Shown here: piece after piece, positions 534 to 23,494 of the stretch
Layout: the number at the start of each line of letters is the position of its first letter
How positions within the stretch are numbered: the first letter of the stretch is position 1
Source: Mycobacterium sp. Marseille-P9652
GTDB lineage: Bacteria > Actinomycetota > Actinomycetes > Mycobacteriales > Mycobacteriaceae
Direction of reading: 5' to 3'
Length of the DNA: 40,433 bases
Assembly (NCBI RefSeq): GCF_902652685.1
Contig: NZ_CACRUY010000048.1
Coordinates: 1 to 40,433, forward strand
Program-made: the position numbers and the translations under genes
The notes under the pieces: model-generated
Databases searched by the model: none
The model's input: the letters and a program-made list of their open reading frames with translations, nothing else
What the model was told of the DNA's origin: nothing

Positions 534-1001
534 ATGACCGATCCGTGCGTGGCGGCCGCCGTTCATGTCGACGCCCGCCCCGACGAGGTGTACCGGCTCC
601 TCACCGACCTGCCGACGCTGGCCTCGCTCGCCGAGGAGGCGGTCTCGATGACGTGGCGCAAGGGTGATGCCGCCCGGCCGGGGGCGGTGTTCACCGGCCA
701 CAACCGCAACGGCGGGCACAGCTGGACCACCACCTGCACGGTGACCGACGCCGAACCGGGCCATCGCTTCGGGTTCGACGTGCGGTATGCCTTCATCCCC
801 ATCGCGCGCTGGCAGTACGACGTGGTCGAGGCCGACGGTGGTTGTCGGGTTACCGAGAGCACGTGGGACCGCAGGCCGGGGTGGTTCCGCCGGTTCGCCG
901 GCCGGGCCACCGGCGTGAGCGACCGGCCGGCCGCGAACGCCGAACACATCCGGCTGACCCTGCAGCGGCTCAAGCAGCGCGCCGAGGCCCGCGGGCGATG
1001 A
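534..1001 (+). CDS. SRPBCC (polyketide cyclase/lipid-binding fold) protein
   Basis: A 155-residue protein of the START/SRPBCC helix-grip type, a fold that binds hydrophobic ligands. The N-terminal VHVDARPDEVYRLLTDLPTL is the typical first strand and helices, the central GHNRNGGHSWTTTCTV the strand pairs, and the C-terminal AANAEHIRLTLQRLKQRAEA the long lid helix. It appears to match Rv2778c of M. tuberculosis by position and size. Its stop overlaps the start of the monooxygenase gene (ATGA), so the two are translationally coupled. A substrate-carrier or cyclase role beside the oxidative enzymes is inference; the ligand is unknown. Confidence 0.82.
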   Translation: MTDPCVAAAVHVDARPDEVYRLLTDLPTLASLAEEAVSMTWRKGDAARPGAVFTGHNRNGGHSWTTTCTVTDAEPGHRFGFDVRYAFIPIARWQYDVVEADGGCRVTESTWDRRPGWFRRFAGRATGVSDRPAANAEHIRLTLQRLKQRAEARGR

Positions 1002-2461: not shown

Positions 2462-2512
2462 AACCCGGCATCGAGCGCTCGGCGGCGGGGCCGCCGGGTG
2501 ACGGGGTGGTTC

Positions 2513-2518
2513 TATACT
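2513..2518 (+). promoter_or_regulatory. Possible internal -10 element and RBS for the di-iron protein gene
   Basis: TATACT lies in the 87-nt gap after the monooxygenase, with a strong AAGGGGGAGG ribosome site at 2531-2540 and the ATG at 2549. No convincing -35 box is visible. It suggests that the downstream genes can be transcribed separately from the upstream pair. Confidence 0.4.
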
Positions 2519-2548
2519 TCTGAGCACTCGAAGGGGGAGGGGGTCGCG

Positions 2549-3457
2549 ATGTCCACTGTCGACGACCGGGCCGCCGGTCCGCACGACCGATCGCTGGACC
2601 ACGAGCGCATCGTGCTCGAGCCGCGCGACGTCGACTTCGACTGGGCCACGCTGCCGTTCCACTACGTGCCCGGCGAACCATTCACCACCCACATGCTCAA
2701 CGTCCTGCACATGCTGCTGCCCGCGGGCGAGGAGTTCTTCGTGGACGCGTTCAAGAATGCCCTGCCATTCATCAAGGACGACCAGCTGCGGCTCGACGTG
2801 CAGGGCTTCATCGGCCAGGAGGCCGTGCATTCGCGGGCCCACGCCAAAGTCCTCGATCACTTCGCCGCCCACGGCGTCGACGTCACCCCGTACACCGACC
2901 AGATCCGCTGGCTGTTCGAGAAGCTGCTGGGGTCCAGGCCGGGCTGGAGCCCGCGGCGGCGGCACAGCTGGCTGCTCGAGCAGGTGTCGCTGGTATCGGC
3001 CATCGAGCACTACACCGCGATCCTCGGCGAGTGGGTGCTGAACACTCCCGCCCACGACGCCATCGGCACCGACCCGGTGATGCTCGACCTGCTGCGCTGG
3101 CACGGCGCCGAGGAGGTCGAGCACAAGGCCGTCGCCTTCGACACGATGAAGCACCTGCGCGCCGGGTACTGGCGCCGGGCCCGCGCGCAACTGGTGGTCA
3201 CCCCGGCGATGGCGCTGCTGTGGATCCGCGGCGTGCGGTTCCTGTACTCGGTGGATCCCGAGCTGCCGCCCGGGGCCAAGCCGCGCTGGCGCGACTATTT
3301 CCGGGCGGCGCGGCGCGGGCTGCTGCCCGGCCCGCTGCGCTTCGTCCGGGTCGTCGGCGACTATTACCGGCCCGGCTTCCACCCCTCCCAGCTGGGCGGC
3401 CTGGGTCCGGCCGTCGACTACCTGGCCGTCTCGCCCGCAGCGCGTGCGGCCCACTGA
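2549..3457 (+). CDS. Predicted 'metal-dependent hydrolase' with di-iron four-helix ligand pattern
   Basis: 302 residues, resembling the Pfam family called predicted metal-dependent hydrolase (PF10118) and, by position, Rv2777c. The sequence shows the ligand order of a carboxylate-bridged di-iron four-helix bundle: Glu61/62 (GEEFF), Glu91-x2-His94 (QEAVH), Glu153 (AIEHY) and Glu189-x2-His192 (EEVEH). This favours a ferritin-like oxidase, oxygenase or desaturase over a hydrolase. The C-terminal third is basic and contains a hydrophobic stretch (TPAMALLWIRGVRFLY) that may contact membrane. The start at 2549 is chosen for its AGGGGGAGG site; an upstream in-frame ATG at 2498 lies before that site. 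The 2Fe-2S reductase two genes downstream is a plausible electron donor (inference). Confidence 0.8.
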   Translation: MSTVDDRAAGPHDRSLDHERIVLEPRDVDFDWATLPFHYVPGEPFTTHMLNVLHMLLPAGEEFFVDAFKNALPFIKDDQLRLDVQGFIGQEAVHSRAHAKVLDHFAAHGVDVTPYTDQIRWLFEKLLGSRPGWSPRRRHSWLLEQVSLVSAIEHYTAILGEWVLNTPAHDAIGTDPVMLDLLRWHGAEEVEHKAVAFDTMKHLRAGYWRRARAQLVVTPAMALLWIRGVRFLYSVDPELPPGAKPRWRDYFRAARRGLLPGPLRFVRVVGDYYRPGFHPSQLGGLGPAVDYLAVSPAARAAH

Positions 3458-3460
3458 GCC

Positions 3461-5221
3461 GTGACTTCCAAGACGAGCGTCACGACGTCCGACGGTGTCA
3501 CGCTGGCCGTGCACCGCTACACCGAGATCGACCCGCGCCGCCCGACGGTGCTCGCCGTTCACGGCTGGCCCGACAACCACCACGTCTGGGACGGCGTGGC
3601 CGAGCACCTGGGCGAGGCGTACCCCGGCCGCTACAACGTCGTCGCCTATGACGTCCGCGGCGCCGGCGAATCATCCCGGCCGGCAAGGCGATCCGGCTAC
3701 TCGTTCGCCCGGCTGACGTCCGACCTCGGCGCGGTGATCGACAGCCTCGGCGTCCGGCGGGTTCACCTGCTGGCTCACGACTGGGGGTCGATCGCGGCGT
3801 GGGACGCGGTGACCGACGAGTCGGTGATGGCGAAGGTCGCGTCGTTCACTTCCGTTTCGGGACCGCACCTGCGGTATGCGGGCCGCTTCCTGCGGTCGGC
3901 GCGCAACCCGCGCGCCGGGGGAGGGGTCGCCAGGCAGCTGCTCGGATCGCTCTACATCGCCTTCTTCCTGTGTCCGGGCGTGCCCGAGCTCGCCTTCCGG
4001 TCCCGCGTCGGCGTGAAACTCGTTGAGGCGCTCGAACGCATCGGCCGGTCGAGCGCCCGCAGCCGGCGGAGCGCGACGCCGCGGTCCATCGGCGACTACG
4101 TCAACGGGCTGGGGCTCTACCGGGAGAACATGCCCGGCCCGATGATCTCGCCTGGGCCGCGACTGCCCGAGACCACCGTCCCGGTGCAGACCGTGGTGCC
4201 GCGCGCGGACCTGTTCGTGACGCCGGCCCTGCAGCGCTTCACCGGCGCGGTCCCGGCGGCCGGCCGGGTGGTCGAGATCGAGGGCGGACACTGGGTGGTC
4301 ACCTCGCGCCCCGACGTCATCGCCCGCCTCACCGCCGAATGGGTCGACCAAATCGAAGGCGGCGCAAGCGCTTCCGCCGCGACGGCGGGGAGCACGCGCG
4401 AGATCACGGGGAAGTTGGCCCTGATCACCGGTGGGGGAGCGGGCATCGGCCGGGCCACCGCGGTGGAGTTCGCGCGCCGCGGCGCCCGCAAGGTCGTGAT
4501 CGTCGACCGCGACCTCGACGCCGCCAACGTCGGCGTCGACGCCGTCCGCGCCGCGTGCGCGCTTGCGGCGGCGTACCGGGTCGACGTGCGCGACGAGAAG
4601 GCGATGAACGACCTTGCGGCGCAGGTGCGCTCCGAACACGGGGTGGTCGACATCCTGGTCAACAACGCGGGCATCGGGATGGCCGGGCGGTTCCTGGAGA
4701 CCAGCCCGGAGAACTGGGACGACATCATCGCGGTCAACGTCCGCGGCGTCATCGCCGGCAGCAGGGCGTTCGGGGCGCAGATGGTCGAGCGCGGACAGGG
4801 CGGGACCATCATCAACCTGGCGTCGGCCGCGGCGTTCATCCCCTCGAAGTCCATGGTGGCCTACGGCACGACGAAGGCCGCGGTGCTCGCGTTCAGCGAA
4901 GCGCTGCGCGCCGACTTCGCCGACGATGGCATCACCGTCACCGCCGTCTGCCCGGGATTTGTCAACACCAACATCGCCAAGAGCACGATCTACGCCGGCA
5001 TGACCGACGAACAGCAGGAGCGGGCCCGGCAGAAGGCCGACGCCGCCTACCGGCGCCGCAACTTCACCCCGGAGGCGGTCGCCAAGGCGATCGCGAAGGC
5101 CGTCGAGACCGGGGCGCCGGTGGTGCCGATCGCGGCCGAATCCCGTGTCGGCTACGCGATGCGGCGCATCAGTCCCTCGGCGCTGCGCCTGTTCGCCCGC
5201 CTCGACATTCGTCAGGGTTGA
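3461..5221 (+). CDS. EphD-like fusion: alpha/beta hydrolase plus short-chain dehydrogenase
   Basis: 586 residues with two catalytic domains. Residues 1-300 are an epoxide-hydrolase-type alpha/beta hydrolase: oxyanion motif HGWP (34-37), nucleophile Asp107 in AHDWGS, and a late GGHW His. Residues 315-586 are an SDR: TGGGAGIG nucleotide site (323-330), NNAG, and the Ser455/Tyr468/Lys472 triad (YGTTK). This is the architecture of EphD (Rv2214c), an epoxide hydrolase linked to mycolic acid metabolism in M. tuberculosis; this copy is a paralogue at another locus. The GTG start follows the previous stop by 3 nt and the next gene starts 2 nt after the stop, so it is within an operon. Hydrolysis of an epoxide to a diol followed by oxidation to a ketol is the inferred sequence. 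Confidence 0.9.
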   Translation: MTSKTSVTTSDGVTLAVHRYTEIDPRRPTVLAVHGWPDNHHVWDGVAEHLGEAYPGRYNVVAYDVRGAGESSRPARRSGYSFARLTSDLGAVIDSLGVRRVHLLAHDWGSIAAWDAVTDESVMAKVASFTSVSGPHLRYAGRFLRSARNPRAGGGVARQLLGSLYIAFFLCPGVPELAFRSRVGVKLVEALERIGRSSARSRRSATPRSIGDYVNGLGLYRENMPGPMISPGPRLPETTVPVQTVVPRADLFVTPALQRFTGAVPAAGRVVEIEGGHWVVTSRPDVIARLTAEWVDQIEGGASASAATAGSTREITGKLALITGGGAGIGRATAVEFARRGARKVVIVDRDLDAANVGVDAVRAACALAAAYRVDVRDEKAMNDLAAQVRSEHGVVDILVNNAGIGMAGRFLETSPENWDDIIAVNVRGVIAGSRAFGAQMVERGQGGTIINLASAAAFIPSKSMVAYGTTKAAVLAFSEALRADFADDGITVTAVCPGFVNTNIAKSTIYAGMTDEQQERARQKADAAYRRRNFTPEAVAKAIAKAVETGAPVVPIAAESRVGYAMRRISPSALRLFARLDIRQG

Positions 5222-5223
5222 GT

Positions 5224-6306
5224 GTGGTTGAGCGGCAGAGCATCTGGGCGAGCCGGCCCGGCGACCTGTACGGCCGGCGCGACCGCGACCGCCTCGGCAC
5301 GGCGCTGTGGGGCATGCGGGCGCTGTTCGGCGGGTTCGCCGCGGCGTCGCGGTGGGCGCCGTCGCGGGTGCTTCCGGTGCCGCGGGGACTGTCCGCGGTC
5401 GTCACCGCACGCGAACTCGTCGCCCCCGACGTCGTCGCGCTGACCCTCGCCGACCCCGGCGGTGGCCTGCTGCCGTCGTGGACGCCCGGTGGCCACATCG
5501 ACGTGCTGCTGCCGTCGGGCCGGCGCCGGCAGTACTCGCTGTGCGGCCCGCCCGGCCGGCGCACCGACTACCGCATCGCCGTGCGGCGCATCGCCGACGG
5601 CGGCGGCGGGTCCGTCGAGATGCACGAGGCCTACCGCGTGGGTGATACCCTCGTGTTCGAGGGGCCCCGCAACGCCTTCTACCTCGGCACCGCAGAGCGC
5701 GACGTCCTGTTCGTCATCGGCGGCATCGGCGTGACGCCGATCCTGCCGATGATCCGGGCCGCCGCGCAGCGCGGAATGGATTGGCGCGCCGTCTATGCCG
5801 GGCGCGGCCGCGAGTACATGCCGTTCCTGGACGAGGTGGTGTCGGCGGACCCGGATCGGGTGACGGTGTGGGCGGACGACGAGCGCGGCGGCTTCGCCGG
5901 CGTCGACGACCTGTTGGCCGGCGCGGGTCCGGCGACCGCCGTCTACGTGTGCGGGCCCAGCGGCATGCTCGAGTCGGTGCGCCGGGCGCGCGACGAGCAT
6001 GCTTGTGCCCCATTGCATTACGAGCGGTTCAGCCCGGCGCCGGTGGTCGACGGCGTCGCGTTCGAGGTGGAGCTGGCGCGGTCGGGTGAGGTGCTCGGCG
6101 TTCCGGCGAACCGGTCGGCGCTCGAGGTGCTGCTCGATCGCGACCCGACCGCGCCCTACTCGTGCCGCCAGGGATTCTGCGGGACGTGCAAGGTGAAAGT
6201 GCTTGCGGGGCAGGTTGATCACCGGGGCCGGCTGGCGGTGGGCGACGACGAGATGCTCGTCTGCGTGTCGCGGGCCCGCGGCGAACGGCTCGTCATCGAC
6301 GCCTGA
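5224..6306 (+). CDS. PDR/VanB-type oxidoreductase (flavin reductase with C-terminal 2Fe-2S)
   Basis: 360 residues. It transfers electrons from NAD(P)H through a flavin to a plant-type 2Fe-2S cluster, and so to a partner oxygenase. Flavin site RQYS is at 102-105, the nucleotide-binding GGIGVTPILPM in the middle, and the cluster cysteines are Cys314, Cys319, Cys322 (CRQGFCGTC) and Cys347 (VCVSRA). The GTG at 5224 is chosen because it begins 2 nt after the upstream stop; the open frame upstream overlaps the EphD-like gene. It appears to correspond to Rv2776c (309 aa). It is the only obvious electron donor for the di-iron protein of this operon. The 3' end overlaps the convergent GNAT gene by 14 nt. 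Confidence 0.92.
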   Translation: MVERQSIWASRPGDLYGRRDRDRLGTALWGMRALFGGFAAASRWAPSRVLPVPRGLSAVVTARELVAPDVVALTLADPGGGLLPSWTPGGHIDVLLPSGRRRQYSLCGPPGRRTDYRIAVRRIADGGGGSVEMHEAYRVGDTLVFEGPRNAFYLGTAERDVLFVIGGIGVTPILPMIRAAAQRGMDWRAVYAGRGREYMPFLDEVVSADPDRVTVWADDERGGFAGVDDLLAGAGPATAVYVCGPSGMLESVRRARDEHACAPLHYERFSPAPVVDGVAFEVELARSGEVLGVPANRSALEVLLDRDPTAPYSCRQGFCGTCKVKVLAGQVDHRGRLAVGDDEMLVCVSRARGERLVIDA

Positions 6307-7506: not shown

Positions 7507-8514
7507 ATGGCTAAGCCGCCGCTGCCGATGAAACCGACCGGCTGGTTCCAGGTCGCCTGGTCCGACGAGATCGGCGTGGGTGACGTCCACACGATGAAGT
7601 ACTTCGACCAGGAGATGGTCGCCTGGCGGTCCGAGTCGGGCCGGCTCACGGTGATGAACGCCTACTGCGAACATCTCGGCGCGCACCTCGGCTACGGCGG
7701 CACGGTCGTCGGCGAGGTGCTGCAGTGCCCGTTCCACGGCTGGCAGTGGAGCGGCGAGGGGCGCAACGTCTGCATCCCCTACCAGGACCACCCCAACCGC
7801 GGCAGGCGGATCCGCACCTATCCCGTCGTGGAACGCAACGAGTCCGTCTACATCTGGCACGACGTCGAGCGCCGCGAGCCCTACTTCGACGCGCCCGACG
7901 TGTTCGGCGCCTTTCACGACGGCAGCGGTCCGCACGACTACTACCCCCAGCAGCGGCTGTACCGGGAGCGGCTGGAGCTGCACCCCCAGTACGTGCTCGA
8001 AAACGGCGTGGACTTCGCGCATTTCAAGTTCGTGCACCAGACTCCGATCGTGCCGGTCTTTACCCGCCACGACTTCGGCGACGCCGTGTCCTTCGTCGAC
8101 TTCACCATCACCTTCGAGGGCGACGACGGCCAGAAGATCGAGGACGTCAAGAGCGGCGTGGAGGCCGTCAACGGCGGGCTGGGTATCGCGGTGACGAAGA
8201 GCTGGGGCATGGTCGACAACCGGACGATCTCCGCGGTCACCCCCGTCGACGAGTCCACCTCCGACGTCCGGTTCATGGTGTACATAGGCCGGCGACCGGC
8301 CGGCGATCCGGCCAGGGACCCCGCCCGCGCCGAGGCCAAGGCGGCCGAGTTCGGGCGCGAGGTGATCCGGCAGTTCACCCAGGACATCGAGATCTGGCGG
8401 CATCAGCGCTACTCCGACCCGCCCGCGCTCGCCGCGGACGAGTACGAGGGCTTCACCGCGATCCGCGCCTGGGCCAAGCAGTTCTATCCGCAACCCGCAT
8501 CCCAGAAAGGCTGA
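7507..8514 (+). CDS. Rieske non-haem iron oxygenase, KshA-like terminal oxygenase
   Basis: 335 residues. The Rieske 2Fe-2S ligands are Cys54-x-His56 (CEH) and Cys74-x2-His77 (CPFH). The mononuclear iron site is visible as NGVDFAHFKFVH, with Asp169, His172 and His177, and a later QDIEIW Asp as the probable third ligand. This is the layout of bacterial ring-hydroxylating oxygenase alpha subunits such as 3-ketosteroid 9-alpha-hydroxylase KshA. No reductase or ferredoxin is encoded beside it, so an electron donor must come from elsewhere (possibly the reductase at 5224-6306). The next gene starts 5 nt after the stop. The substrate, probably a steroid or other alicyclic/aromatic ring, is not determinable here. 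Confidence 0.92.
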   Translation: MAKPPLPMKPTGWFQVAWSDEIGVGDVHTMKYFDQEMVAWRSESGRLTVMNAYCEHLGAHLGYGGTVVGEVLQCPFHGWQWSGEGRNVCIPYQDHPNRGRRIRTYPVVERNESVYIWHDVERREPYFDAPDVFGAFHDGSGPHDYYPQQRLYRERLELHPQYVLENGVDFAHFKFVHQTPIVPVFTRHDFGDAVSFVDFTITFEGDDGQKIEDVKSGVEAVNGGLGIAVTKSWGMVDNRTISAVTPVDESTSDVRFMVYIGRRPAGDPARDPARAEAKAAEFGREVIRQFTQDIEIWRHQRYSDPPALAADEYEGFTAIRAWAKQFYPQPASQKG

Positions 8515-13407: not shown

Positions 13408-14361
13408 ATGGCCATCATCGTCAACGTCGACAACTTCGTCCGGGCTGAAACGCATCGGATGTTCACGGACATCCAGCGTGCCGCGGGCGGCGTCGGGAGG
13501 TTCCGCCATAATCGGCAGCCGACATCGATCGACGAGCAGACCGTCATACGGATGAACCGGGATACGCTGTACAGCTTCGCTATCGTCGACTTGGCCGAGA
13601 CGGCCTGGCTGTCGCTCCCAGACCCCGGTGGCCGGTATATGTCCGCAATGGTCGTGAATGAGGACCACTACATCAACGTGATCCTCCACGCGTCGGGGCG
13701 GCATCAGTTGACCCGACAGCGATGTGGGTCCCGCTACGTCCTGGTGGGCGTGCGTATCCTGGTCGATCCGTTGGACCCCGATGACGTCGCCGCCGTCGGC
13801 GCCCTCCAAGACCGCATCACGCTCGAGTCGAGTTCCGACGAGTTCGCCGCTCCGGAATACGACACAACCAGTCTCGACAAAACCCGCGACGCCCTCCTCG
13901 CGCTGGCGAGCGGCTTGACTTCCTTCGAGCGGACGTTCGGAAGTCCGGACGAGGTGGACCCCGTGCACCATCTGATCGGTACGGCCGCCGGGTGGGGAGG
14001 GCTGCCGACTTCCGAAGCCTCCTACGTCGGTGTCGACCCTGGGGTACCGCCCGGATCGTACGAGCTGACGTTCAAAGACGTTCCGGTGGACGCGTTCTGG
14101 TCCGTTTCGGTGTACAACGCCGCCGGCTTCTTCGAGCCGAACCCGCACGGACTTTATACGGTCAACAGCGTGACGGGGGTGCCGGGAGCGGACGGCTCGA
14201 TCACCGTGCACTTCACAGCCGATCCCGGCGAGAACCCCCCAGCGAACTGCATCATCACACCCGAAGGATGGAATTACCTGGTTCGGTTGTATCGCCCGCG
14301 CGAGGAATTCTTCGCCGGCACGTGGACGCTGCCTTCGCTCTCGCCGATCAACGGGACTTAG
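13408..14361 (+). CDS. DUF1254/DUF1214 domain protein
   Basis: 317 residues with the DUF1254 hallmark near the N-terminus (VIRMNRDTLYSFAIVDL, then LPDPGGRYMSAMVVNEDHY) and the DUF1214 hallmark at the C-terminus (PVDAFWSVSVYNAAGFFEPN and ITPEGWNYLVRLYRP). No signal peptide is visible. The family is widespread and of unknown function. It sits where H37Rv has PPE/PE genes (Rv2770c-Rv2768c), so the locus differs in gene content. Its GC content appears slightly lower than that of its neighbours, which is compatible with transfer but not proof. ATG 13408 follows a weak GGGAC; the start is moderately sure. Confidence 0.85.
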   Translation: MAIIVNVDNFVRAETHRMFTDIQRAAGGVGRFRHNRQPTSIDEQTVIRMNRDTLYSFAIVDLAETAWLSLPDPGGRYMSAMVVNEDHYINVILHASGRHQLTRQRCGSRYVLVGVRILVDPLDPDDVAAVGALQDRITLESSSDEFAAPEYDTTSLDKTRDALLALASGLTSFERTFGSPDEVDPVHHLIGTAAGWGGLPTSEASYVGVDPGVPPGSYELTFKDVPVDAFWSVSVYNAAGFFEPNPHGLYTVNSVTGVPGADGSITVHFTADPGENPPANCIITPEGWNYLVRLYRPREEFFAGTWTLPSLSPINGT

Positions 14362-14397: not shown

Positions 14398-15228
14398 CTA
14401 TCGGTACGACGGCTGGAACGCCTCGGCGGGTTGGGCGAGGGCCAGCGCGGTGCCGGTGCCCAACGGTCCGTGCCGGTCGAACAGCGTCGCCGTGCCGGTG
14501 GCCACGCCCGCCGCGCCATAGTGGCTCATCGCCGCGAGGCCGAGGTATTCGCCGTCGGGGAGCCGGGCGGCGGTGACGGTGTAGTCGGCGTTGATGAAGC
14601 GCAAACCGCCTGTGCCCCAATGCGTCAGCGAGCTCGTGATGTCACCGACGAAGGCCAGGCGCACGAACGGTGTCAGCGGATAGCCGTGGACCATCGGACG
14701 GAAGATCCGCGTCCACGCGAACTTCTGGGACTTCCCCTGTTCCCACTCGGCCATCCCGGGGGTACCCCCCGAAACGTCGCCGCCATAGCTCCAGATGTGA
14801 AACGGCATTTCGGGCGGGAAGCCGGCGGAGTCGGTGGGCGGCGGCGGCATAGCCACCGGGGTCGACCACACCCGCGCGTCGGGATGCTCACCGCGGCGCA
14901 GAAAGAGCGCGCTAGCCCGCGCCACGACCTTTCCGTCCTGCAGCAGGGTGCCGTCGACAATTTTGATGCGCCGACCCTCCCGCTGTACCTCGGTCCGGAT
15001 CTGCACCGGCTCCATCAGCGCCGGACGCAACAGGTCGACGGTCAGCCGGGCCGGTTGCAGGCCCGCATCGATGCCCGATTGCTCGATGCCCCACGCCAGG
15101 AGGCCGCCGACGTTCTGACCACCCATCACCGCACCCCACGGCCCCTGGGTGATCGCGGCCGGGAGATAGGAGTCGCCGTCGACGGCGAAGTACGCCTCGG
15201 GCATGATGGCGGAATCCTCGATCGTCAT
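14398..15228 (-). CDS. Acyl-CoA thioesterase-like (double hot-dog) protein
   Basis: 276 residues of the TesB-like thioesterase family. The N-terminal half contains AITQGPWGAVMGGQNVGGLL and LTVDLLRPALMEPVQIRTEV, the first hot-dog; the second includes GDITSSLTHWGTGGLRFINA and ATLFDRHGPLGTGTALALAQ. Such enzymes hydrolyse acyl-CoA thioesters. The gene is divergent from the acyl-CoA ligase, with 32 nt between starts, and likely shares control with it. It would oppose the ligase chemically (release versus activation), suggesting turnover or proofreading of the same acyl pool (inference). Confidence 0.85.
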   Translation of the reverse strand: MTIEDSAIMPEAYFAVDGDSYLPAAITQGPWGAVMGGQNVGGLLAWGIEQSGIDAGLQPARLTVDLLRPALMEPVQIRTEVQREGRRIKIVDGTLLQDGKVVARASALFLRRGEHPDARVWSTPVAMPPPPTDSAGFPPEMPFHIWSYGGDVSGGTPGMAEWEQGKSQKFAWTRIFRPMVHGYPLTPFVRLAFVGDITSSLTHWGTGGLRFINADYTVTAARLPDGEYLGLAAMSHYGAAGVATGTATLFDRHGPLGTGTALALAQPAEAFQPSYR

Positions 15229-15235
15229 CGCTCAC

Positions 15236-15241
15236 ACCTTA
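15236..15241 (-). promoter_or_regulatory. -10 element of the thioesterase gene
   Basis: On the minus strand TAAGGT is followed by 7 nt and the ATG at 15228, a leaderless layout. On the plus strand an AGGAGG site (15246-15251) serves the divergent ligase. Confidence 0.45.
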
Positions 15242-15260
15242 GGACAGGAGGATCCCGCGC

Positions 15261-16793
15261 ATGCCTCCGGTGATCGAAATACCGCGCGACCACAACCCAT
15301 TCGCCACGACCGGTGTCACCCGAGACTCAGCCGGCGTTCCGCACTACGACGACCTGCCGGAGACGCTGCTGGACATGCTCGCCGAGCACGTCGACGCCCG
15401 GCCCGACAGCGAGGCCGTGGTCGAACTGGGCGCCGGCCGCCTGACCTACCGCCAGCTGTGGGATCGCGCGTCCCGCGTGGCGGGGGGCCTGCGCGAGGAC
15501 GGCCTCAGACCGGGGGAGCGCGTCGCCGTGCGCTACCCGGCCGGGCTCGACTGGGTGCTGGCCTTCTGGGGCACCGTGATGGCGGGCGGCGTTGCGGTGG
15601 CGGTCAACACCCGCTCGGCGCAACCCGAGGTCGAGTTCGTGCTCAACGACTCAGGCGCCCACGTCGACCTCGCCCCCGACACGCCACTGCCGGACGGACA
15701 GCCTTACGTGACGGGGGAACTCGACCGCGACGACATCGCCGCGCTCTTCTACACCTCCGGCACCACCGGCCACCCGAAGGGCGTCCCCACGACCCACGAG
15801 GCGTTCCTGACGAACACCGAGAACGGGATCCGGTGCCTCGAGCAGCCCAGGGACCTGGGCGAGGGCATGCGCACGCTGATCTCCGTGCCGCTGTTCCACG
15901 TAACCGGCTGCAACTCACAGCTTCTCGCCGCGACACGCCTGGGGGGAGCGTCGGTGATCATGCCCGCGCTCAACCTCGACGAGCTGATCGCCACGCTTGC
16001 CGGCGAGCGGATCTCGGTGATGGTGACGGTGCCCGCCGTCTACGCGCTCTTGTTGCGGCACAAGGGACTACAAACGGTCGACGTCAGCGGCGTGCAGTGG
16101 GTGGGCTACGGCGGCGCGCCGATCGCCCCGTCGCTGGTTCAGTCGGTGAAGGACGCGTTTCCGCGCGCGACGGTGTTCAACGGCTACGGCATGACGGAGA
16201 CCGCGTCGCTCATGACCGTGCTGCCCGACTCCGACGCCCTCGAGCACGCCGATTCCGTGGGATATGCGGTTCCTTCGGTGGATCTCGGCCTGGTGCCGTT
16301 CGGTGCCGACCGGTCCGAGGGCGAACTGGTGGTCCGCGGCGCCAATGTGACCGCCGGCTACTGGAATCGCCCCGAGTCGACGGCCGCCACCATCGTGGAC
16401 GGCTGGCTGCACACCGGCGACGTCGTCCGCGTGGACGACGACGGTCGCGTGCACATCGTCGACCGGCTGAAGGACATCATCAACCGCGGCGGGGAGAACG
16501 TTTCGAGCGTCGAGGTCGAGGCGGTGCTGCTCGCGGCGCCCACCGTGGCCGACGCGTGCGTGCTGGCGGTTGCCGACGAGGTCATGGGCGAAAAGGTCGG
16601 CGCCGTATTGGTCGGCGACGCAGGAGAAGTCGACGTCGCCGCCGTGCTCGACCACTGCCGCGCCCGGCTTGCCGACTTCAAGGTTCCGCAGTACATCACC
16701 GTGGTAGACGAGTCGCTGCCGCGCAACGCCGGCGGCAAGCTGCTCAAGGGCAGGCTGCGCGAACAGGTTCGGTGGGGCGACCCGTTGCGATGA
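15261..16793 (+). CDS. Acyl-CoA ligase (AMP-forming)
   Basis: 510 residues of the ANL superfamily. It activates a carboxylic acid to its adenylate and then the CoA thioester. The phosphate loop YTSGTTGHPKG is at 164-174, followed by GYGMTETASL, the HTGD adenosine/ribose motif and the hinge DRLKDIINRGGENV; the catalytic Lys493 is in NAGGKLLKG. The ATG has an AGGAGG site 9 nt upstream. The stop overlaps the carboxylase start (ATGA), so the two products are made together: the ligase probably supplies the acyl-CoA that the carboxylase modifies. Chain length cannot be read from the sequence. Confidence 0.93.
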   Translation: MPPVIEIPRDHNPFATTGVTRDSAGVPHYDDLPETLLDMLAEHVDARPDSEAVVELGAGRLTYRQLWDRASRVAGGLREDGLRPGERVAVRYPAGLDWVLAFWGTVMAGGVAVAVNTRSAQPEVEFVLNDSGAHVDLAPDTPLPDGQPYVTGELDRDDIAALFYTSGTTGHPKGVPTTHEAFLTNTENGIRCLEQPRDLGEGMRTLISVPLFHVTGCNSQLLAATRLGGASVIMPALNLDELIATLAGERISVMVTVPAVYALLLRHKGLQTVDVSGVQWVGYGGAPIAPSLVQSVKDAFPRATVFNGYGMTETASLMTVLPDSDALEHADSVGYAVPSVDLGLVPFGADRSEGELVVRGANVTAGYWNRPESTAATIVDGWLHTGDVVRVDDDGRVHIVDRLKDIINRGGENVSSVEVEAVLLAAPTVADACVLAVADEVMGEKVGAVLVGDAGEVDVAAVLDHCRARLADFKVPQYITVVDESLPRNAGGKLLKGRLREQVRWGDPLR

Positions 16794-19700
16794 CCCAGAC
16801 CCTGCTCATCGCCAACCGCGGCGAGATCGCGCTCCGGATCATCCGGACCGCCATGGAACTGGGCATGGCGACGGTCGCGGTCTACGCCGAGGACGACGCG
16901 GACAGTCCCCACGTGCACGCGGCCGACGAAGCCGTCGGGCTTGCCGGTGCGGGCCCGAGGGCCTACCTCGAGGGCACGGCGCTGCTGACGGCCGCCGATA
17001 AATCCGGCGCCGGCCTGATTCATCCGGGCTACGGATTCCTCAGCGAGAATGCCGGCTTCGCCCGGGCGTGTGCCGCCGCCGGACGCACGTTCGTCGGGCC
17101 CGGCGCCGACGTCCTCGACCTGCTCGGCAACAAGTCCGCGGCGCGGGCCGCGGCGATCGCCGCCGGGGTCCCGGTGCTGCCCGCGACCGATGGTCCGAGC
17201 AGCGTGGCCGACATCCGGGCATTCTTCGCCGAGCACGGCGGTCCGTTGATGATCAAGGCCCTCGCCGGCGGCGGTGGCCGCGGGATGCGAAAAGTGTTGA
17301 GCGCCGAGGAGATCGACACCGCCTACCAGCGGTGCGCCGCGGAGGCGCGGCTGGGCTTCGGCGATCCGTCGCTCTTCGCCGAGGCCGCGCTGGGGGCCGC
17401 GCGGCACATCGAGGTGCAGGTGGTCGCCGCGCCGGCCGGGCACCAGACCCACGCCCTGGCCCTGGGGGACCGCGACTGCAGCGTGCAGCGGCGCTACCAG
17501 AAGATCGTCGAGATCGCGCCCGCGCAAGGGCTTTCCGACGCGCTGCGCCGCGGCCTGCACCAAGCCGCCGCCCGGCTGTGCGCCCGCGTCGGCCTGCGGG
17601 GCGTGGCGACCGTGGAATTCCTCGTCAGCGGAGACGAATTCGTCTTCCTCGAGGTCAATCCGCGCATCCAGGTCGAACACACCGTCACCGAGGAGACCAC
17701 CGGGACCGACCTGGTGGCCGTCCAGCTGGCGATCGCGTGCGGCGCATCGTACTACCGGCTGGGGCTGCCGGCCGGAACCGCCTCGGACGGCACCGAGGTC
17801 ATCGGCGAACCGGCCGCGCACCGGGGCATCGCCATTCAGGCCCGGGTCAACACGGAAACGTTCGCCGCCGACGGGTCGGTCGTGCCGGCGGCGGGCACGC
17901 TGACCGTGTTCTCCCCACCGGGCGGACCCGGCGTCAGGGTGGACACCTACGGAAGGCCCGGGCTGGCCACCAGCCCGCAGTACGACTCGCTGCTGGCCAA
18001 GGTCATCACCCATGTGCACGGTACGTCGTTCAGTGCGGCGGTCCGCAAGGCGCGCACCGCCCTGGGCGAGTTCGCCATCGAGGGTGTCGCCACCAACATT
18101 GCATTTCTCCGGGAGCTCCTGTCCGACAACAGGATTCAATCGGGATGGGTGACCACCGACTTCCTGGACGGCGCAATCGCGGAGTTCGCGTCCGCGGCCC
18201 TCTCCCACCAACACGACGTGCATGTCGCCACGGTCGAGCTCTACCCGGGCGAGGAGGTCCTGCGCGCCCACCTGGCGGGCACCGTCGTCGAGGTGGCGCC
18301 GGACGGCGCCGAGTTCGGCACCGGGGCACAGCTGGCGGTGCTCGAGGCGATGAAGATGCAGCACGTGCTGATCGCGCCCGCGGCGCTGCGCACGGTCCGT
18401 GCCCTGGTGAGGGTCGGCCAGGTGGTCGGCACCGGGGACCCGCTGCTGGTCTTCACCGGCACCGCCGACGGCGGCGACCGCGATTCGGCCTCGGCAGCCG
18501 TCGATCTCGACAAGCCCCGCGCCGACCTCGACGAGGTGCGGCACCGGCACCTGCTCACCCTCGACGAGGGCCGTGAGGCGACCGTCGCCAAGCGGCACGG
18601 GCGCGGCCGCCGAACCGCCCGCGAGAACATCGCCGACCTGGTCGACCCGGGAAGCTTCGTCGAATACGGCGCCCTGGCCATCGCGGCGCAGCGCAGCCGG
18701 CGCAGCGAAGAGGACCTGATCGCCAACACCCCGGCCGACGGCCTCGTCGCCGGCCTCGCGACGATCGGGGCGGAACGCTTCGGGCGGGCGGCGGCCGAGG
18801 TGGCCGTGCTGTCCTATGACTACACCGTGCTCGCCGGAACCCAGGGCATGCGCAACCATGCCAAGACCGACCGCGTCTTCGAGCTGGCGGCGCGAAGGCG
18901 CCTTCCGGTCGTGTTGTTCGCCGAGGGCGGCGGCGGCCGGCCCGGCGACACGGACGTCGGCGGCCACGCGGGCCTGGACGTGCCGACCTTTCGAATGCTG
19001 GCCGCGCTGAGCGGCACGGTGCCGCTGGTGTCGATCGTCTCGGGCCGGTGCTTCGCCGGCAACGCCGCGCTGGCCGGGGTGTGCGACGTGATCATCGCGA
19101 CCCCGGACGCGAACATCGGCATGGGTGGCCCGGCGATGATCGAGGGCGGCGGGCTGGGCGTGTACCCCCCGGAGGCGATCGGCCCGATCGACGTGCAGCG
19201 GCGCAACGGCGTGGTGGGCCTGGTCGCCCGCGACGAGGCGCACGCGGTGTCGCTGGCCAAGCGGTACCTGTCCTACTTCCAGGGCCCGCTGGCCGAGTGG
19301 GAGGCGCCGGATCCGCGGATCGCCCGGCATGTCGTGCCGCAGAACAGGTTACGGGCCTACGACGTACATCGGGCCATCGAGTCGATCGTCGACGTGGGCT
19401 CCGCGTGCGAGCTGCGGCCCGACTACGGGGTCGGGATCGTCACCGCCCTCGTGCGCGTCGAGGGCGTGGCATACGGGCTGATCGCCAACAGCACCCACCA
19501 TCTGGGCGGCGCAATCGACGCCGAGGCCGCCGACAAGGCCGGCGACTTCCTGGCCCTGTGCGAGTCGTTCGGCCTGCCGGTGATCTCGCTGTGCGACACC
19601 CCGGGCTTCATGGTCGGGCCAGACGCCGAAAAGGACGCGGCGGTGCGCCGATTCGGCCGCATGTTCGTGCTGGGCGCCCGGCTGACGGTGCCACTCGGCA

Positions 19701-20026
19701 TGATCATCCTGCGCAAGGGATACGGGCTGGGCGCGATGGCAATGGCAGGCGGCTCGTTCCGCGCCCCGCAGTTCACGATCGCCTGGCCCACCGGCGAGAT
19801 CGGCGGCATGGGTCTGGAAGGCGCTGTGCGCCTTGGGTTCAGCAAGGAACTGGCCGCCGTCGCCGACCCGGCCGAGCGACAGGAACTGTTCGACAAGCTG
19901 GTAGCGGCGGCCTACGAGCACGGCAAGGCGCTGCGATCCGCCACGACGTTCGAGCTCGACGACGTCATCGACCCGGCCGACTCCCGGGCCTGGATCACCA
20001 GGCTCGCCGGGGGATCGGGCGGCTAA
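16790..20026 (+). CDS. Single-chain multidomain acyl-CoA carboxylase (long-chain type)
   Basis: 1078 residues carrying all three biotin-carboxylase functions in one chain. Residues 1-450 are biotin carboxylase (LLIANRGEIALRIIRTA, ATP-grasp KALAGGGGRGMRKV, EVNPRIQVEHTVTEE). Residues 480-560 are the biotin carrier, with Lys522 in EAMKMQH as the biotinylation site. Residues 570-1078 are a carboxyltransferase (RGRRTARENIADLVDPGSF, GNAALAGVCDVIIA, GGMGLEGAVRLG). Ordinary mycobacterial acyl-CoA carboxylases use separate AccA and AccD chains. This architecture matches the long-chain acyl-CoA carboxylase described structurally from M. avium subsp. paratuberculosis, which alpha-carboxylates long acyl-CoAs. 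It is translationally coupled to the ligase. The biological use of the product is not established. Confidence 0.93.
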   Translation: MTQTLLIANRGEIALRIIRTAMELGMATVAVYAEDDADSPHVHAADEAVGLAGAGPRAYLEGTALLTAADKSGAGLIHPGYGFLSENAGFARACAAAGRTFVGPGADVLDLLGNKSAARAAAIAAGVPVLPATDGPSSVADIRAFFAEHGGPLMIKALAGGGGRGMRKVLSAEEIDTAYQRCAAEARLGFGDPSLFAEAALGAARHIEVQVVAAPAGHQTHALALGDRDCSVQRRYQKIVEIAPAQGLSDALRRGLHQAAARLCARVGLRGVATVEFLVSGDEFVFLEVNPRIQVEHTVTEETTGTDLVAVQLAIACGASYYRLGLPAGTASDGTEVIGEPAAHRGIAIQARVNTETFAADGSVVPAAGTLTVFSPPGGPGVRVDTYGRPGLATSPQYDSLLAKVITHVHGTSFSAAVRKARTALGEFAIEGVATNIAFLRELLSDNRIQSGWVTTDFLDGAIAEFASAALSHQHDVHVATVELYPGEEVLRAHLAGTVVEVAPDGAEFGTGAQLAVLEAMKMQHVLIAPAALRTVRALVRVGQVVGTGDPLLVFTGTADGGDRDSASAAVDLDKPRADLDEVRHRHLLTLDEGREATVAKRHGRGRRTARENIADLVDPGSFVEYGALAIAAQRSRRSEEDLIANTPADGLVAGLATIGAERFGRAAAEVAVLSYDYTVLAGTQGMRNHAKTDRVFELAARRRLPVVLFAEGGGGRPGDTDVGGHAGLDVPTFRMLAALSGTVPLVSIVSGRCFAGNAALAGVCDVIIATPDANIGMGGPAMIEGGGLGVYPPEAIGPIDVQRRNGVVGLVARDEAHAVSLAKRYLSYFQGPLAEWEAPDPRIARHVVPQNRLRAYDVHRAIESIVDVGSACELRPDYGVGIVTALVRVEGVAYGLIANSTHHLGGAIDAEAADKAGDFLALCESFGLPVISLCDTPGFMVGPDAEKDAAVRRFGRMFVLGARLTVPLGMIILRKGYGLGAMAMAGGSFRAPQFTIAWPTGEIGGMGLEGAVRLGFSKELAAVADPAERQELFDKLVAAAYEHGKALRSATTFELDDVIDPADSRAWITRLAGGSGG

Positions 20027-20358
20027 CCGTGGCCGCCGCCGCAGCCGACGCCGGGCAGGCAGGCCTGGCCGCCCGGCACGCCGCCGGGTCCCGCGTTCTG
20101 GCCCCCGGAGCCGCAGCCGACACCCGGGACGCAGCCCTGACCGCCCGGGCCGCCGCCGGGGCCGTTGTTCTGGCCGCCGGAGCCGCAGTTGCCGTTCCCG
20201 TCGCAGCCGCCGCCGCCCGGGTCGTCCTTGACGATGACATGCGTCGGCGCGCCCGCGCCCGGTGCGGCCGCGAAGGCGTCGGCCGGCGCGGCGGCGACCG
20301 CCGCGGCAACCGCCCCGCTCACCATGATCGATTTCATGAGGGTTAATTTCTTCGACAT
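20023..20358 (-). CDS. Small exported Cys/Gly-rich repeat protein
   Basis: 111 residues. Residues 1-31 form a signal peptide (MSKKLTLMKS, hydrophobic AVAAAVAAAPADAFA). The mature part is two near-identical 24-residue repeats (58-81 and 82-105, consensus CGSGGQNxGPGGxPGGQxCxPGVG) plus half-copies at each end. The six cysteines are strictly periodic: 52, 58, 76, 82, 100, 106, alternating spacings of 6 and 18. The repeats are 72 bp in DNA. The gene converges on the carboxylase with a 4-nt overlap and diverges from the SDR at 20428. No family is recognised; metal binding, disulphide knots or a wall-associated role are possible. The reading frame is convincing because it has export signal, repeat phase and fixed Cys spacing. 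Confidence 0.75.
   Translation of the reverse strand: MSKKLTLMKSIMVSGAVAAAVAAAPADAFAAAPGAGAPTHVIVKDDPGGGGCDGNGNCGSGGQNNGPGGGPGGQGCVPGVGCGSGGQNAGPGGVPGGQACLPGVGCGGGHG
20044..20187 (-). repeat. Two in-frame 72-bp repeats coding for the Cys/Gly units
   Basis: Unit 1 spans 20187-20116 and unit 2 spans 20115-20044 (minus strand). They encode residues 58-81 and 82-105 of the small exported protein and differ at a few codons only. Confidence 0.8.
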
Positions 20359-20427: not shown

Positions 20428-21222
20428 GTGACCACATCGAAGACCCCACTGGACCTGACCGGACGGACCGCCATCATCACCGGCGCCTCGCGCGGCATCG
20501 GGCTGGCGATCGCGCAGCAACTGGCGGCCGCCGGCGCGGACGTGGTGCTCACCGCCCGCAAGCAGGAGGCCGCGGAAGCGGCCGCTGCGCAGGTCGGGCA
20601 GAAGGCGCTCGGCGTGGGTGCGCACGCCGTCGACGAGGACGCCGCGCGGCGCTGCGTCGACCTCACCCTCGAGACCTTCGGCCGCATCGACATCCTGATC
20701 AACAACGCCGGAACCAACCCGGCCTTCGGTCCGCTGATCGACCAGGACCACGCGCGTTTCACCAAAATCTTCGACGTCAACCTGTGGGCGCCGCTGATGT
20801 GGACGTCGCTCGCCGTCAAGTCGTGGATGGGCGAGCACGGCGGCTCGGTGGTCAACACCGCCTCCATCGGCGGCATGCACCAGTCGCCGGGCATGGGCAT
20901 GTACAACGCCACCAAGGCCGCGCTGATCCACGTCACCAAGCAACTGGCCCTGGAACTTTCGCCGAAGATCCGGGTGAACGCGATCGCCCCCGGGGTGGTC
21001 CGCACCAGGCTGGCCGAGGCGCTGTGGAAGGACCACGAGGACCCGCTCGCGTCGACGATCGCGCTCGGCCGCATCGGCGAGCCGATCGACGTGGCGAACG
21101 CGGTCGCTTTCCTGGTTTCCGACGCCGCCAGCTGGATCACCGGCGAGACGCTGGTGATCGACGGCGGCACGGTGCTCGGCGCCGCGCAAGGCTTCCAGTC
21201 GCAACCCGGGGGCTCCCAATGA
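20428..21222 (+). CDS. SDR family oxidoreductase (FabG-like)
   Basis: 264 residues, probably the Rv2766c equivalent. Nucleotide site TGASRGIG is near residue 17, NNAG follows, and the catalytic Tyr159-x3-Lys163 is in YNATKAA with Ser in NTASIGG. It reduces or oxidises a hydroxy/keto group, most likely on an acyl thioester. GTG start at 20428. The stop overlaps the first acyl-CoA dehydrogenase (ATGA), and that gene overlaps the second, so the three form one beta-oxidation-like unit. Confidence 0.92.
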   Translation: MTTSKTPLDLTGRTAIITGASRGIGLAIAQQLAAAGADVVLTARKQEAAEAAAAQVGQKALGVGAHAVDEDAARRCVDLTLETFGRIDILINNAGTNPAFGPLIDQDHARFTKIFDVNLWAPLMWTSLAVKSWMGEHGGSVVNTASIGGMHQSPGMGMYNATKAALIHVTKQLALELSPKIRVNAIAPGVVRTRLAEALWKDHEDPLASTIALGRIGEPIDVANAVAFLVSDAASWITGETLVIDGGTVLGAAQGFQSQPGGSQ

Positions 21223-22409
21223 CCCCCGACGACCTGGACGACCGCGTCAAGGCCCTGCTCGACGAGCACGACCCGGCCACCAGCGACCCGCGCGAATTCC
21301 TTGGGGCGCAATACGACGCGGGCCTGGCCTGGGTGCACCTGCCCGGGGGCTTCGGCGGCCTCGGCCTGCCCCGCAGCGCCCAGGAGCCGGTCGACGCGCA
21401 CCTCGCCGCGGCGGGCGCCCCGGTGCGCGGGACCGTCAAGAACTTCATCGGGATGGGCATGGCGGCACCGACCATCGCGGCGTTCGGGACCGACGAGCAG
21501 AAGCGAAAGTTCCTGCGCCCCTTGTTCACCGGCGAGCAGGTGTATTGCCAGCTGTTCAGCGAGCCGGGCGCCGGATCCGACCTCGCCGGGGTCGCCACCC
21601 GCGCCGTGCGCGACGGTGACGACTGGATCGTCAACGGGCAGAAGGTGTGGACCTCGATGGCGCAGCACGCGCAGATGGCCATCCTGGTCGCCCGCACCGA
21701 CCCGACCGTGCCGAAACACGCCGGGCTGACGTATTTCCTGTGCGACATGACCCAACCGGGCGTCGAGGTGCGCCCGCTGCGCCAGATCACCGGCGAGGCG
21801 GAGTTCAACGAGGTGTTCCTCACCGACGTCCGGGTGCCCGACGCCAACCGGCTGGGCCCCGAGGGCGGCGGCTGGCGCGTCGCGACCACCACGCTCAACA
21901 ACGAGCGCGTCGCGATCGGCTCGCGCTCGGGCGCCCCGCGGGAGAGTGGGCACATCGGCAAGGTCGCCGACGCCTGGCGCGACGATCCGGGGCTGCGCAA
22001 TCCCGCGATGCACGACGAGCTGATGCGGTTGTGGGTGGACGCCGAGGTGCTGCGCCTGGCGGGGGAGCGCCTGCGACAGCAGGCCAGCGCAGGCCAACCG
22101 GGGCCCGAGGGCGCCGGCATGAAGGTGGCGTTCGCCCGCCTGGCGCAGGCCATTTCGGGTTTTGAGATCGAGCTGCACGGTGAAGCGGGGCTGGCCTACG
22201 ACGACTGGACCATGCGGCGCACCGAGGTGGTCGACCTGGTCGGGCGCGGGCCCGGCTATCGCTACCTGCGGGCGCGCGGCAACTCGATCGAGGGCGGCAC
22301 CTCGGAGATCCTGCGCAACACGATCTCCGAGCGGATCCTCGGCCTGCCGGGCGAACACCGCGTCGACAAGGACGTCGCGTGGAAGGATCTGAAGGACCTG
22401 AACCGATGA
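21219..22409 (+). CDS. Acyl-CoA dehydrogenase, catalytic-type subunit
   Basis: 396 residues. FAD-dependent alpha,beta-dehydrogenation of an acyl-CoA. QLFSEPGAGSDLAG and the WIVNGQKVWTSMA flavin/substrate segments are clear, and Glu358 in NSIEGGTSEILRN occupies the catalytic-base position (MCAD Glu376). The QRxxFG flavin motif is not found, whereas the next protein has it. This division matches mycobacterial heteromeric dehydrogenases such as the FadE26-FadE27 type, where each flavin site is built from two unlike chains. Electrons would pass to ETF. Confidence 0.93.
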   Translation: MTPDDLDDRVKALLDEHDPATSDPREFLGAQYDAGLAWVHLPGGFGGLGLPRSAQEPVDAHLAAAGAPVRGTVKNFIGMGMAAPTIAAFGTDEQKRKFLRPLFTGEQVYCQLFSEPGAGSDLAGVATRAVRDGDDWIVNGQKVWTSMAQHAQMAILVARTDPTVPKHAGLTYFLCDMTQPGVEVRPLRQITGEAEFNEVFLTDVRVPDANRLGPEGGGWRVATTTLNNERVAIGSRSGAPRESGHIGKVADAWRDDPGLRNPAMHDELMRLWVDAEVLRLAGERLRQQASAGQPGPEGAGMKVAFARLAQAISGFEIELHGEAGLAYDDWTMRRTEVVDLVGRGPGYRYLRARGNSIEGGTSEILRNTISERILGLPGEHRVDKDVAWKDLKDLNR

Positions 22410-23494
22410 CCGACCTGCTGTACTCCGACACCGAGGACGCGCTGCGCGACAGCGTTCGCGAACTGTTCGCCGACCGCTGCCCGCCGGAGACCGTGGCACG
22501 GGCCTACGACCCGGAGCCGCAAGACTTTTCGGCGCTCTGGCGGACGCTCGCCGCCGAATTGGGCGTAGCCGGCCTGCTCGTTCCCGAGGGCCTCGGCGGC
22601 GCCGGTGCGGGGCCGCGCGAGACGGCGGTCGTCATGGAGGAGATCGGGCGGGCGGTCGCGCCGGTGCCCTTCCTGTCCAGCGCCGTCCTCGCGACCGTCG
22701 CGTTGCTGCGGGCCGGTGACACCGAGACCGTGCCCGCGCTGGCGCGCGGAGAGTTGACGGCGGCGCTGGTGGTGCCGCTGTCCGCCGCGCCGGGGGATTC
22801 CGTTGCGGCCGTGGCAATTAGCGCCGACGGGCTCGCCGGAACGGTCACCAGCGTTGCCGGCGCCGCGCAGGCCGACGTCCTGGTGGTGCCCGTCGCGGGA
22901 GCGGGCGGGCTCGAACTGCACACGGTCGCCGCCGACGGGGCCGGCGTGGAGATTTCGCCGCGGGTCGCGCTGGACATGACGAGACCCCTTGCCGACGTCA
23001 GCTTTTCGGGTGCGGCGTCCGCGCGGGTGGGGCCCGCCGGCGCCGCCATCGACGAGGCGCTCGAAACCGGGGCGGCCCTGCTCGCCTCGGAGCAGCTCGG
23101 GGTGGCCCGCTGGTGCTTCGACGCCACACTGTCATATGCCAAGCAGCGCAAGCAGTTCGGCCGGCTGATCGGCTCCTACCAGGCGATCAAGCACCGACTC
23201 GCCGACCTGTGGTTCGAGGTCGGCGCGGCCACCGCCGCCGCCCGGTACGCCGCCGACGCGTGCGCCCGCGGTGAGGACGTAGGCGTCGCGGCGGCCACCG
23301 CCCAGGCGTACTGCAGCGGGGCCGCGGTGCACGCCGCCGAGGAATGCGTGCAGCTGCACGGCGGCATCGGGATGACGTGGGAGTATCCGGCGCACCTGTA
23401 CCTCAAGCGCGCCAAGAGCGACCAGCTGGCGCTGGGCAGCGCCTACCGCCACCGCTCGCGGCTGGGCGAGCTGGTCGGCTTGCCGCCGAGCTAG
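22406..23494 (+). CDS. Acyl-CoA dehydrogenase, non-catalytic partner subunit
   Basis: 362 residues, overlapping the previous gene by ATGA. It keeps the flavin/subunit motif Gln247-Arg248-Lys-Gln-Phe-Gly252 and the GGIGMTWEYPAHLYLKRAK segment. At the catalytic-base position it has Leu343 (DQLALGS) where active enzymes have Glu. It is therefore expected to be inactive alone and to complete the flavin site of the partner chain in an alpha2beta2 complex (inference from known ChsE-type enzymes). Convergent with the hydrolase at 23512, 17 nt apart. Confidence 0.92.
   Translation: MTDLLYSDTEDALRDSVRELFADRCPPETVARAYDPEPQDFSALWRTLAAELGVAGLLVPEGLGGAGAGPRETAVVMEEIGRAVAPVPFLSSAVLATVALLRAGDTETVPALARGELTAALVVPLSAAPGDSVAAVAISADGLAGTVTSVAGAAQADVLVVPVAGAGGLELHTVAADGAGVEISPRVALDMTRPLADVSFSGAASARVGPAGAAIDEALETGAALLASEQLGVARWCFDATLSYAKQRKQFGRLIGSYQAIKHRLADLWFEVGAATAAARYAADACARGEDVGVAAATAQAYCSGAAVHAAEECVQLHGGIGMTWEYPAHLYLKRAKSDQLALGSAYRHRSRLGELVGLPPS

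Follow-up and report, generated by a model that had tools for sequence, protein, structure and literature searches.

The locus considered here lies on contig NZ_CACRUY010000048.1 of Mycobacterium sp. Marseille-P9652 (assembly GCF_902652685.1), the whole 40,433 nucleotides of which we refer to as the window. It centers on a gene for an AMP-forming acyl-CoA ligase followed by a gene for a single-chain long-chain acyl-CoA carboxylase (LCC). The ligase (15261-16793, forward strand; 510 residues, with the Pfam AMP-binding and C-terminal domains) shares its stop with the start of the carboxylase (16790-20026, forward strand; 1078 residues), and the ATGA overlap described in an earlier sequence-only reading of this stretch can be read directly at 16790-16793. 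As that reading also noted, the pair faces a thioesterase-like protein of 276 residues (14398-15228, reverse strand; Pfam 4HBT_3 and 4HBT_3C), the divergent starts being separated by a spacer of 32 bp (15229-15260) with an AGGAGG ahead of the ligase ATG. The neighboring genes in the window (39 models) and in the related loci are models from a simple in-house gene finder.

The carboxylase matched 4RCN with 1927 bits in a phmmer search, residues 1-1075 aligning to residues 1-1075. The Pfam domains Biotin_carb_N, CPSase_L_D2, Biotin_carb_C, Biotin_lipoyl and Carboxyl_trans follow one another in the order biotin carboxylase (BC), biotin carboxyl carrier protein (BCCP) and carboxyltransferase (CT), in agreement with the architecture first proposed. 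The Biotin_lipoyl match is weak (21.8 bits versus a cut-off of 22.1), and the biotin-lysine motif EAMKM is present, with the codon for K522, the predicted biotin site, at 18353-18355 on the forward strand. By these alignments the window carboxylase is a full-length ortholog of the crystallized single-chain LCC in 4RCN, which we take to be the enzyme of M. avium subsp. paratuberculosis (MapLCC). The 4RCN protein is a homohexamer with swapped domains, and the related solved carboxylase 5FIF/5H80 is presumably the Deinococcus enzyme called YCC. Forty phage records also match LCC, and among the matches listed two cover at least 80% of it, at 32% identity. The carboxylase is already a known kind of enzyme; its operon context is new. 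In the literature searched, with the LCC structure papers outside its scope, we found no description of LCC paired either with a ligase or with ACAD11 genes.

For the ligase, none of the 25 NCBIfam matches listed lies above its cut-off, and the curated long-chain model NF004837 scores 395 bits where 476 are required. A structure search with its AlphaFold2 (AF2) model, which has a predicted local distance difference test (pLDDT) score of 90, places it near feruloyl, FadD13, 4-coumarate and MenE ligases, a neighborhood that does not decide chain length. The AF2 model of the thioesterase is poor (mean pLDDT 49). As a scale for chance neighbors, the 5.7-Mb source genome contains 71 AMP-binding matches.

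Downstream of the carboxylase, a short-chain dehydrogenase/reductase (SDR; 20428-21222, assigned by Pfam, with DHRS4 as its best solved relative) is followed by the first chain (21219-22409) and the second chain (22406-23494) of an acyl-CoA dehydrogenase, all on the forward strand and joined by successive 4-nt overlaps in the gene models. The best solved relatives of the first chain are 4X28 chain A and 6WY9, and those of the second chain, also assigned by Pfam although with no match to the middle domain, are 6WY8 chain A and 4X28 chain D. Because each chain matches a different subunit of 4X28 (which we take to be ChsE4-ChsE5) and of 6WY8/6WY9, the prediction of a two-chain dehydrogenase is supported. 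The enzyme falls far below the NCBIfam cut-offs for IpdE2 (196 versus 450) and PimC (189 versus 624). A small protein rich in Gly (20023-20358, reverse strand), whose N-terminus resembles a signal sequence and for which Pfam gave no match, is convergent with LCC and ends on the LCC stop with a 4-nt overlap; its gene is present in 23 of 40 LCC loci of the genus. The forward genes thus seem to fall into two units, ligase-LCC and SDR followed by the two dehydrogenase chains, separated by one reverse gene.

The arrangement recurs within the genus. Among 198 genomes, LCC (E 1e-200 or better) was found in 55, with four matches being partial or split (G007, G045, G076 and G091; G and L numbers denote our genomes and loci), and ligase orthologs (about 70% identity or more) were found in 61. 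Both genes are present in 48 genomes, the ligase without LCC in 13 and LCC without the ligase in 7. The Fisher p for this co-occurrence, 2.5e-26, is computed over 198 related genomes with no correction for kinship and does not count as independent evidence. Thioesterase orthologs (72% identity or more) occur in 36 genomes, 35 of which are LCC-positive. We fetched 40 LCC loci, 35 of which carry the ligase as well: 29 directly upstream of LCC and 6 at a distance of 1.4-3.4 kb, which leaves 5 with none. The gap is -4 nt in 27 of the 35, counted with the in-frame LCC start nearest to the ligase stop. An SDR follows LCC in all 40 loci, and a dapB and/or flavodoxin-like gene lies upstream in 36; the four exceptions are two loci whose upstream flanks are short, and L061 and L080, whose flanks are not. 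Genes are inserted between the ligase and LCC in 6 of the 40, mostly PE/PPE genes. PPE or PE/PPE genes were seen beside or between the two in L059-L063, L082, L243 and L244.

The module that follows LCC differs among these loci. The most divergent LCCs (L073-L075, 70% identity) lie in the order ligase, LCC, RmuC, TetR, a second SDR (SDR2), an ACAD11-like dehydrogenase, SDR, an aminoglycoside phosphotransferase (APH)-type kinase and a major facilitator superfamily (MFS) transporter. Other loci have TetR-SDR2-ACAD11-SDR (L068-069), SDR2-SDR-kinase (L066-067), SDR2-SDR-kinase with the two-chain dehydrogenase (L064-065) or SDR2-SDR with the two-chain dehydrogenase (L070-072). The remaining 28 are of the window type, with the SDR and the two-chain enzyme, the second chain of which was not found in L044. 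Across the 40 loci, the ACAD11-like enzyme occurs in 5, the first chain of the two-chain enzyme in 33, and the two never occur together; the kinase is present in 7. The kinase matches the kinase domain of ACAD11 (E 3e-42), and the dehydrogenase matches ACAD11 (2e-128), with only an unnamed putative dehydrogenase scoring better. Judged from the divergence of the LCCs rather than from a tree, the window state with the two-chain enzyme is probably the derived one.

In 11 of the 13 genomes that have the ligase but no intact LCC, a window-type SDR and an ACAD11-type kinase are located no more than about 10 kb from the ligase. Of the 13, 11 were fetched, and the ACAD11-like dehydrogenase is present in all nine fetched genomes that have the SDR and the kinase; the other two, G078 and G174, were judged by coordinates. 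Six loci (L237-239, L245, L248 and L250) have the ligase followed by RmuC-TetR-SDR2-ACAD11-SDR-kinase-MFS, as in the most divergent LCC loci but without LCC, and the coordinates in G078 and G174 give the same spacing. L240-242 have the ligase, ACAD11, SDR and kinase genes in a stretch of about 10 kb that other genes interrupt, the SDR and kinase of L242 being placed by coordinates past the end of the fetched piece. The last two loci, L243 and L244, carry PE/PPE genes and the two-chain enzyme; LCC is in broken pieces in L243 and none was found in L244, so that the operon may have been broken by the arrival of PE/PPE genes in this lineage. Relatives of the kinase occur in 30 of the 198 genomes, in 23 of which an SDR match is no more than 60 bp away, and in five of these 23 (G046, G087, G109, G117 and G163) the kinase-SDR pair is away from any ligase or LCC match.

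Outside the genus, we considered 49 full-length LCC loci in a non-random sample: 5 from plasmids, 16 from a genome scan and 28 from searches by family or phylum. The scan used the best 80 of 594 candidates, most of which proved to be BC-only because its patterns lay in the biotin carboxylase region; we kept L117-L132, the 16 loci that each match LCC once over its full length, and left out patchy loci such as L151 and L157. Flanking ligases were sought by tblastn with eight ligases (E 1e-12). A ligase lies directly upstream on the same strand in 16 of the 49 loci (15 complete and 1 partial), directly downstream in 2 and further off in 4. The complete flanking ligases are only 23-31% identical to the window ligase. 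Matches above the cut-off of NF004822/PRK06178 adjoin LCC in Deinococcus, Bradyrhizobium and L207, with L211 falling 0.5 bit below, whereas PRK06155-like ligases, under the cut-off, do so in Tistrella, R. opacus and L224, and a different one in Marinobacter. Since 17 complete non-orthologous ligases adjoin LCC while 27 of the 49 loci have none in the fetched flanks, some of which are short, we consider acid activation and carboxylation to be a recurrent but not universal pairing.

A TetR cluster is represented in 14 of these 49 loci and an MFS cluster in 9, the MFS proteins being presumably, from a motif, of the metabolite:H+ symporter kind. The Paracoccus locus has a LIV-type ATP-binding cassette transporter and two ligases, Pseudosulfitobacter has the order TetR-LCC-ligase followed by a tripartite ATP-independent periplasmic (TRAP) transporter, and class III CoA-transferase genes are found near LCC in L010, L011 and L132. 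In Deinococcus, LCC lies beside a ligase and a TetR gene, with no oxidation genes annotated there. Of four further plasmid records, two have a ligase adjoining LCC, among them the Pseudosulfitobacter record with its TRAP transporter genes; a third, from P. aeruginosa, has none, and the fourth carries no annotation around LCC. Divergent single-chain carboxylases (37-39% identity) in L224 and L225 are followed by a ligase and TetR-cluster genes, and may represent a second family of LCC-like enzymes that is paired in the same way. Split relatives of LCC (CT only or BCCP-CT) neither carry nor break the argument, because a ligase adjoins in only 1 of 12 examined regions. In that region, from another actinobacterial family (L236:7325-10545), a CT-only relative overlaps an acyl-CoA ligase by 4 nt, and the pair is preceded by a gene resembling a TetR regulator. 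In a genome that lacks LCC, a thioesterase relative of 53% identity (L226:6341-7153) and a CT-only relative of LCC are about 1.9 kb apart.

We give roughly even chances to the hypothesis that the window holds a locus for the catabolic use of an acid, in which the substrate of LCC is a matter of inference. The ligase would convert a free carboxylic acid to its CoA thioester, with ATP going to AMP, and the co-translated LCC would carry out a biotin-dependent carboxylation of the alpha carbon of the thioester. The SDR and the two-chain dehydrogenase would act on that acyl chain, or on a related one, in its oxo/hydroxy and saturated forms. In the divergent members of the genus, the kinase and/or the ACAD11-like enzyme in the place of the two-chain enzyme would form a 4-hydroxyacyl-CoA (levulinate/ACAD11-type) module, accompanied in some by an MFS transporter. 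The ligase product probably flows to LCC, and the acid is likely to be imported and catabolized as a carbon source. The gene neighbors point to the breakdown of an acid that the cell takes up and not to the synthesis of building blocks for long-chain lipids, and the natural substrate is more likely to be a functionalized acid, or one of small to medium size, than an ordinary long-chain fatty acid. Breakdown genes do lie beside the pair in the genus, and LCC may act on their entry substrate, on their end products or on neither. A more specific version, in which LCC acts on the CoA ester of an oxo/hydroxy acid from its paired ligase and the mycobacterial cassette joined a split ACAD11 4-hydroxyacyl-CoA pathway before the kinase and ACAD11 were swapped for an alpha2beta2 dehydrogenase, seems to us rather unlikely.

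Several observations weigh against the catabolic hypothesis. The window itself holds neither the APH-type kinase nor the ACAD11-like dehydrogenase, and their best relatives elsewhere in its own genome are only 38% and 56% identical, respectively. The transporter substrates are inferred from family membership. By sequence, the best solved relative of the ligase is FadD13, and, as recounted in PMC6491548, the Km of LCC for palmitoyl-CoA is 350-fold below that for acetyl-CoA. The last two points favor the alternative that had been put forward initially, namely that the pair makes long-chain alkylmalonyl-CoA for polyketide-type lipids while the thioesterase trims the pool. A ligase-carboxylase route to alkylmalonyl-CoA has been published (PMC5187497), the near confinement of the thioesterase orthologs to LCC-positive genomes would fit it, and so would the overlapping pair in L236. 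However, a Pfam scan of 18 window proteins gave no polyketide synthase, polyketide genes elsewhere not having been surveyed; transporters lie near the pair in other groups; and the ligase is retained without LCC beside catabolic genes. An alignment column, Gly161 in MccB, separates short-chain from medium-chain enzymes (PMC5187497), and Phe occupies it in 12 of 13 aligned LCC-type rows, the exception being the divergent L224. The window residue is Phe734, placed by a motif alignment with the carboxyltransferases of its own genome in which MccB itself was not included. Taken alone, the Phe would speak for short chains, but we judge that the rule is not transferable to LCC because the palmitoyl-using MapLCC has the same Phe, and we leave the point undecided. 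A separate carboxyltransferase of the source genome (L262, C44:41526-43977), which we take to be probably AccD4, has Gly and Ala at the two presumed MccB specificity columns. Overall, we find the alkylmalonyl alternative doubtful and the interpretation first proposed partly supported: the recurrent pairing of acid activation and carboxylation stands, whereas the long-chain substrate, the alkylmalonyl product and the control by the thioesterase are not established.

LCC could also serve as an auxiliary carboxylase of broad range, acting on propionyl-CoA or acetyl-CoA released by the breakdown module rather than on the direct product of the ligase. Breakdown of a 4-oxo C5 acid gives propionyl-CoA, LCC adjoins the breakdown genes in the genus, and 11 genomes without LCC keep the ligase, SDR and kinase together. 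Furthermore, LCC takes C2 to C16 substrates with a similar kcat (PMC6491548). The high Km for acetyl-CoA, the other carboxylases encoded in the source genome and the Deinococcus locus with its ligase but no annotated oxidation genes all speak against this, and we hold it to be improbable. Still another explanation is that the neighborhood reflects descent alone, the ligase serving the SDR/dehydrogenase pathway and LCC being an independent enzyme on the same transcript. The genomes in which the ligase or LCC is kept alone (13 and 7, respectively) and the 27 outside loci without a ligase, which include Pseudomonas, Lentzea and Actinomadura, count in its favor and likewise against the catabolic hypothesis, and the genes inserted between the two partners also favor descent alone. 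A further point against the catabolic hypothesis is the P. aeruginosa plasmid, where no ligase is annotated within 7 kb of LCC. Yet non-orthologous ligases beside LCC in several phyla and the 4-nt overlap kept in 27 of 35 loci are difficult to reconcile with descent alone, which we regard as very improbable.

Other genes in the window lie at lower coordinates than the thioesterase. A DUF1254/DUF1214 protein (13408-14361) is encoded between the dapB side and the thioesterase, and a flavin-containing monooxygenase-like protein, a metal-dependent hydrolase and an alpha/beta-hydrolase-SDR fusion stand in a row at 998-5221, followed by a 2Fe-2S ferredoxin-domain protein (5218-6306). A Rieske oxygenase of the steroid type, with a KshA_C domain, is encoded about 7 kb upstream (7507-8514), all of these on the forward strand. 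Together with the steroid-type dehydrogenase pair, this oxygenase may hint at a bulky substrate.

A crystal structure of LCC has been available since 2015, and no agreed physiological role was found in the literature searched. A review of M. avium (PMC8623537) gives Tran 2015 as the source for another gene and was set aside. The coupled ligase and the link to 4-hydroxyacyl-CoA genes in the genus provide short lists of candidate acids for enzymes that lend themselves to production in E. coli. If LCC uses functionalized acids, the name "long-chain" misleads annotation; if it makes alkylmalonyl-CoA, the route to the stambomycin extender unit would extend far outside Streptomyces.

Compared with the LCC in 4RCN, the window enzyme is colinear over its full length, with the same BC-BCCP-CT order and the biotin motif, and no tested difference separates the two. 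In the stambomycin system, the ligase SamR0482 and the MccB carboxylase give alkylmalonyl-CoA, and the likeness is that a ligase and an acyl-CoA carboxylase are encoded together and could take an acid via acyl-CoA to alpha-carboxyacyl-CoA. Unlike LCC, MccB is a separate beta subunit with a shared alpha subunit, is encoded inside a polyketide cluster (PMC5187497) and has Gly161 where LCC has an apparent Phe. In the levulinate operon lvaABCDE and in mammalian ACAD10/ACAD11, 4-hydroxyacyl-CoA is phosphorylated by the ACAD10/11 and LvaA/LvaC enzymes and the phosphate is eliminated, as described in PMC11342911 and PMC12440821; LvaE is the activating enzyme for levulinate and LvaD the reductase for levulinyl-CoA, according to PMC6692424. 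The divergent loci of the genus resemble these systems in their ligase, SDR, APH-type kinase, ACAD11-like dehydrogenase and MFS transporter, whereas the window has the two-chain dehydrogenase and LCC instead of the kinase and ACAD11. The window dehydrogenase resembles the heteromers ChsE4-ChsE5, a name that appears in PMC8399759, and Tcur3481-Tcur3483, in that its chains match both subunits and are encoded by adjacent genes.

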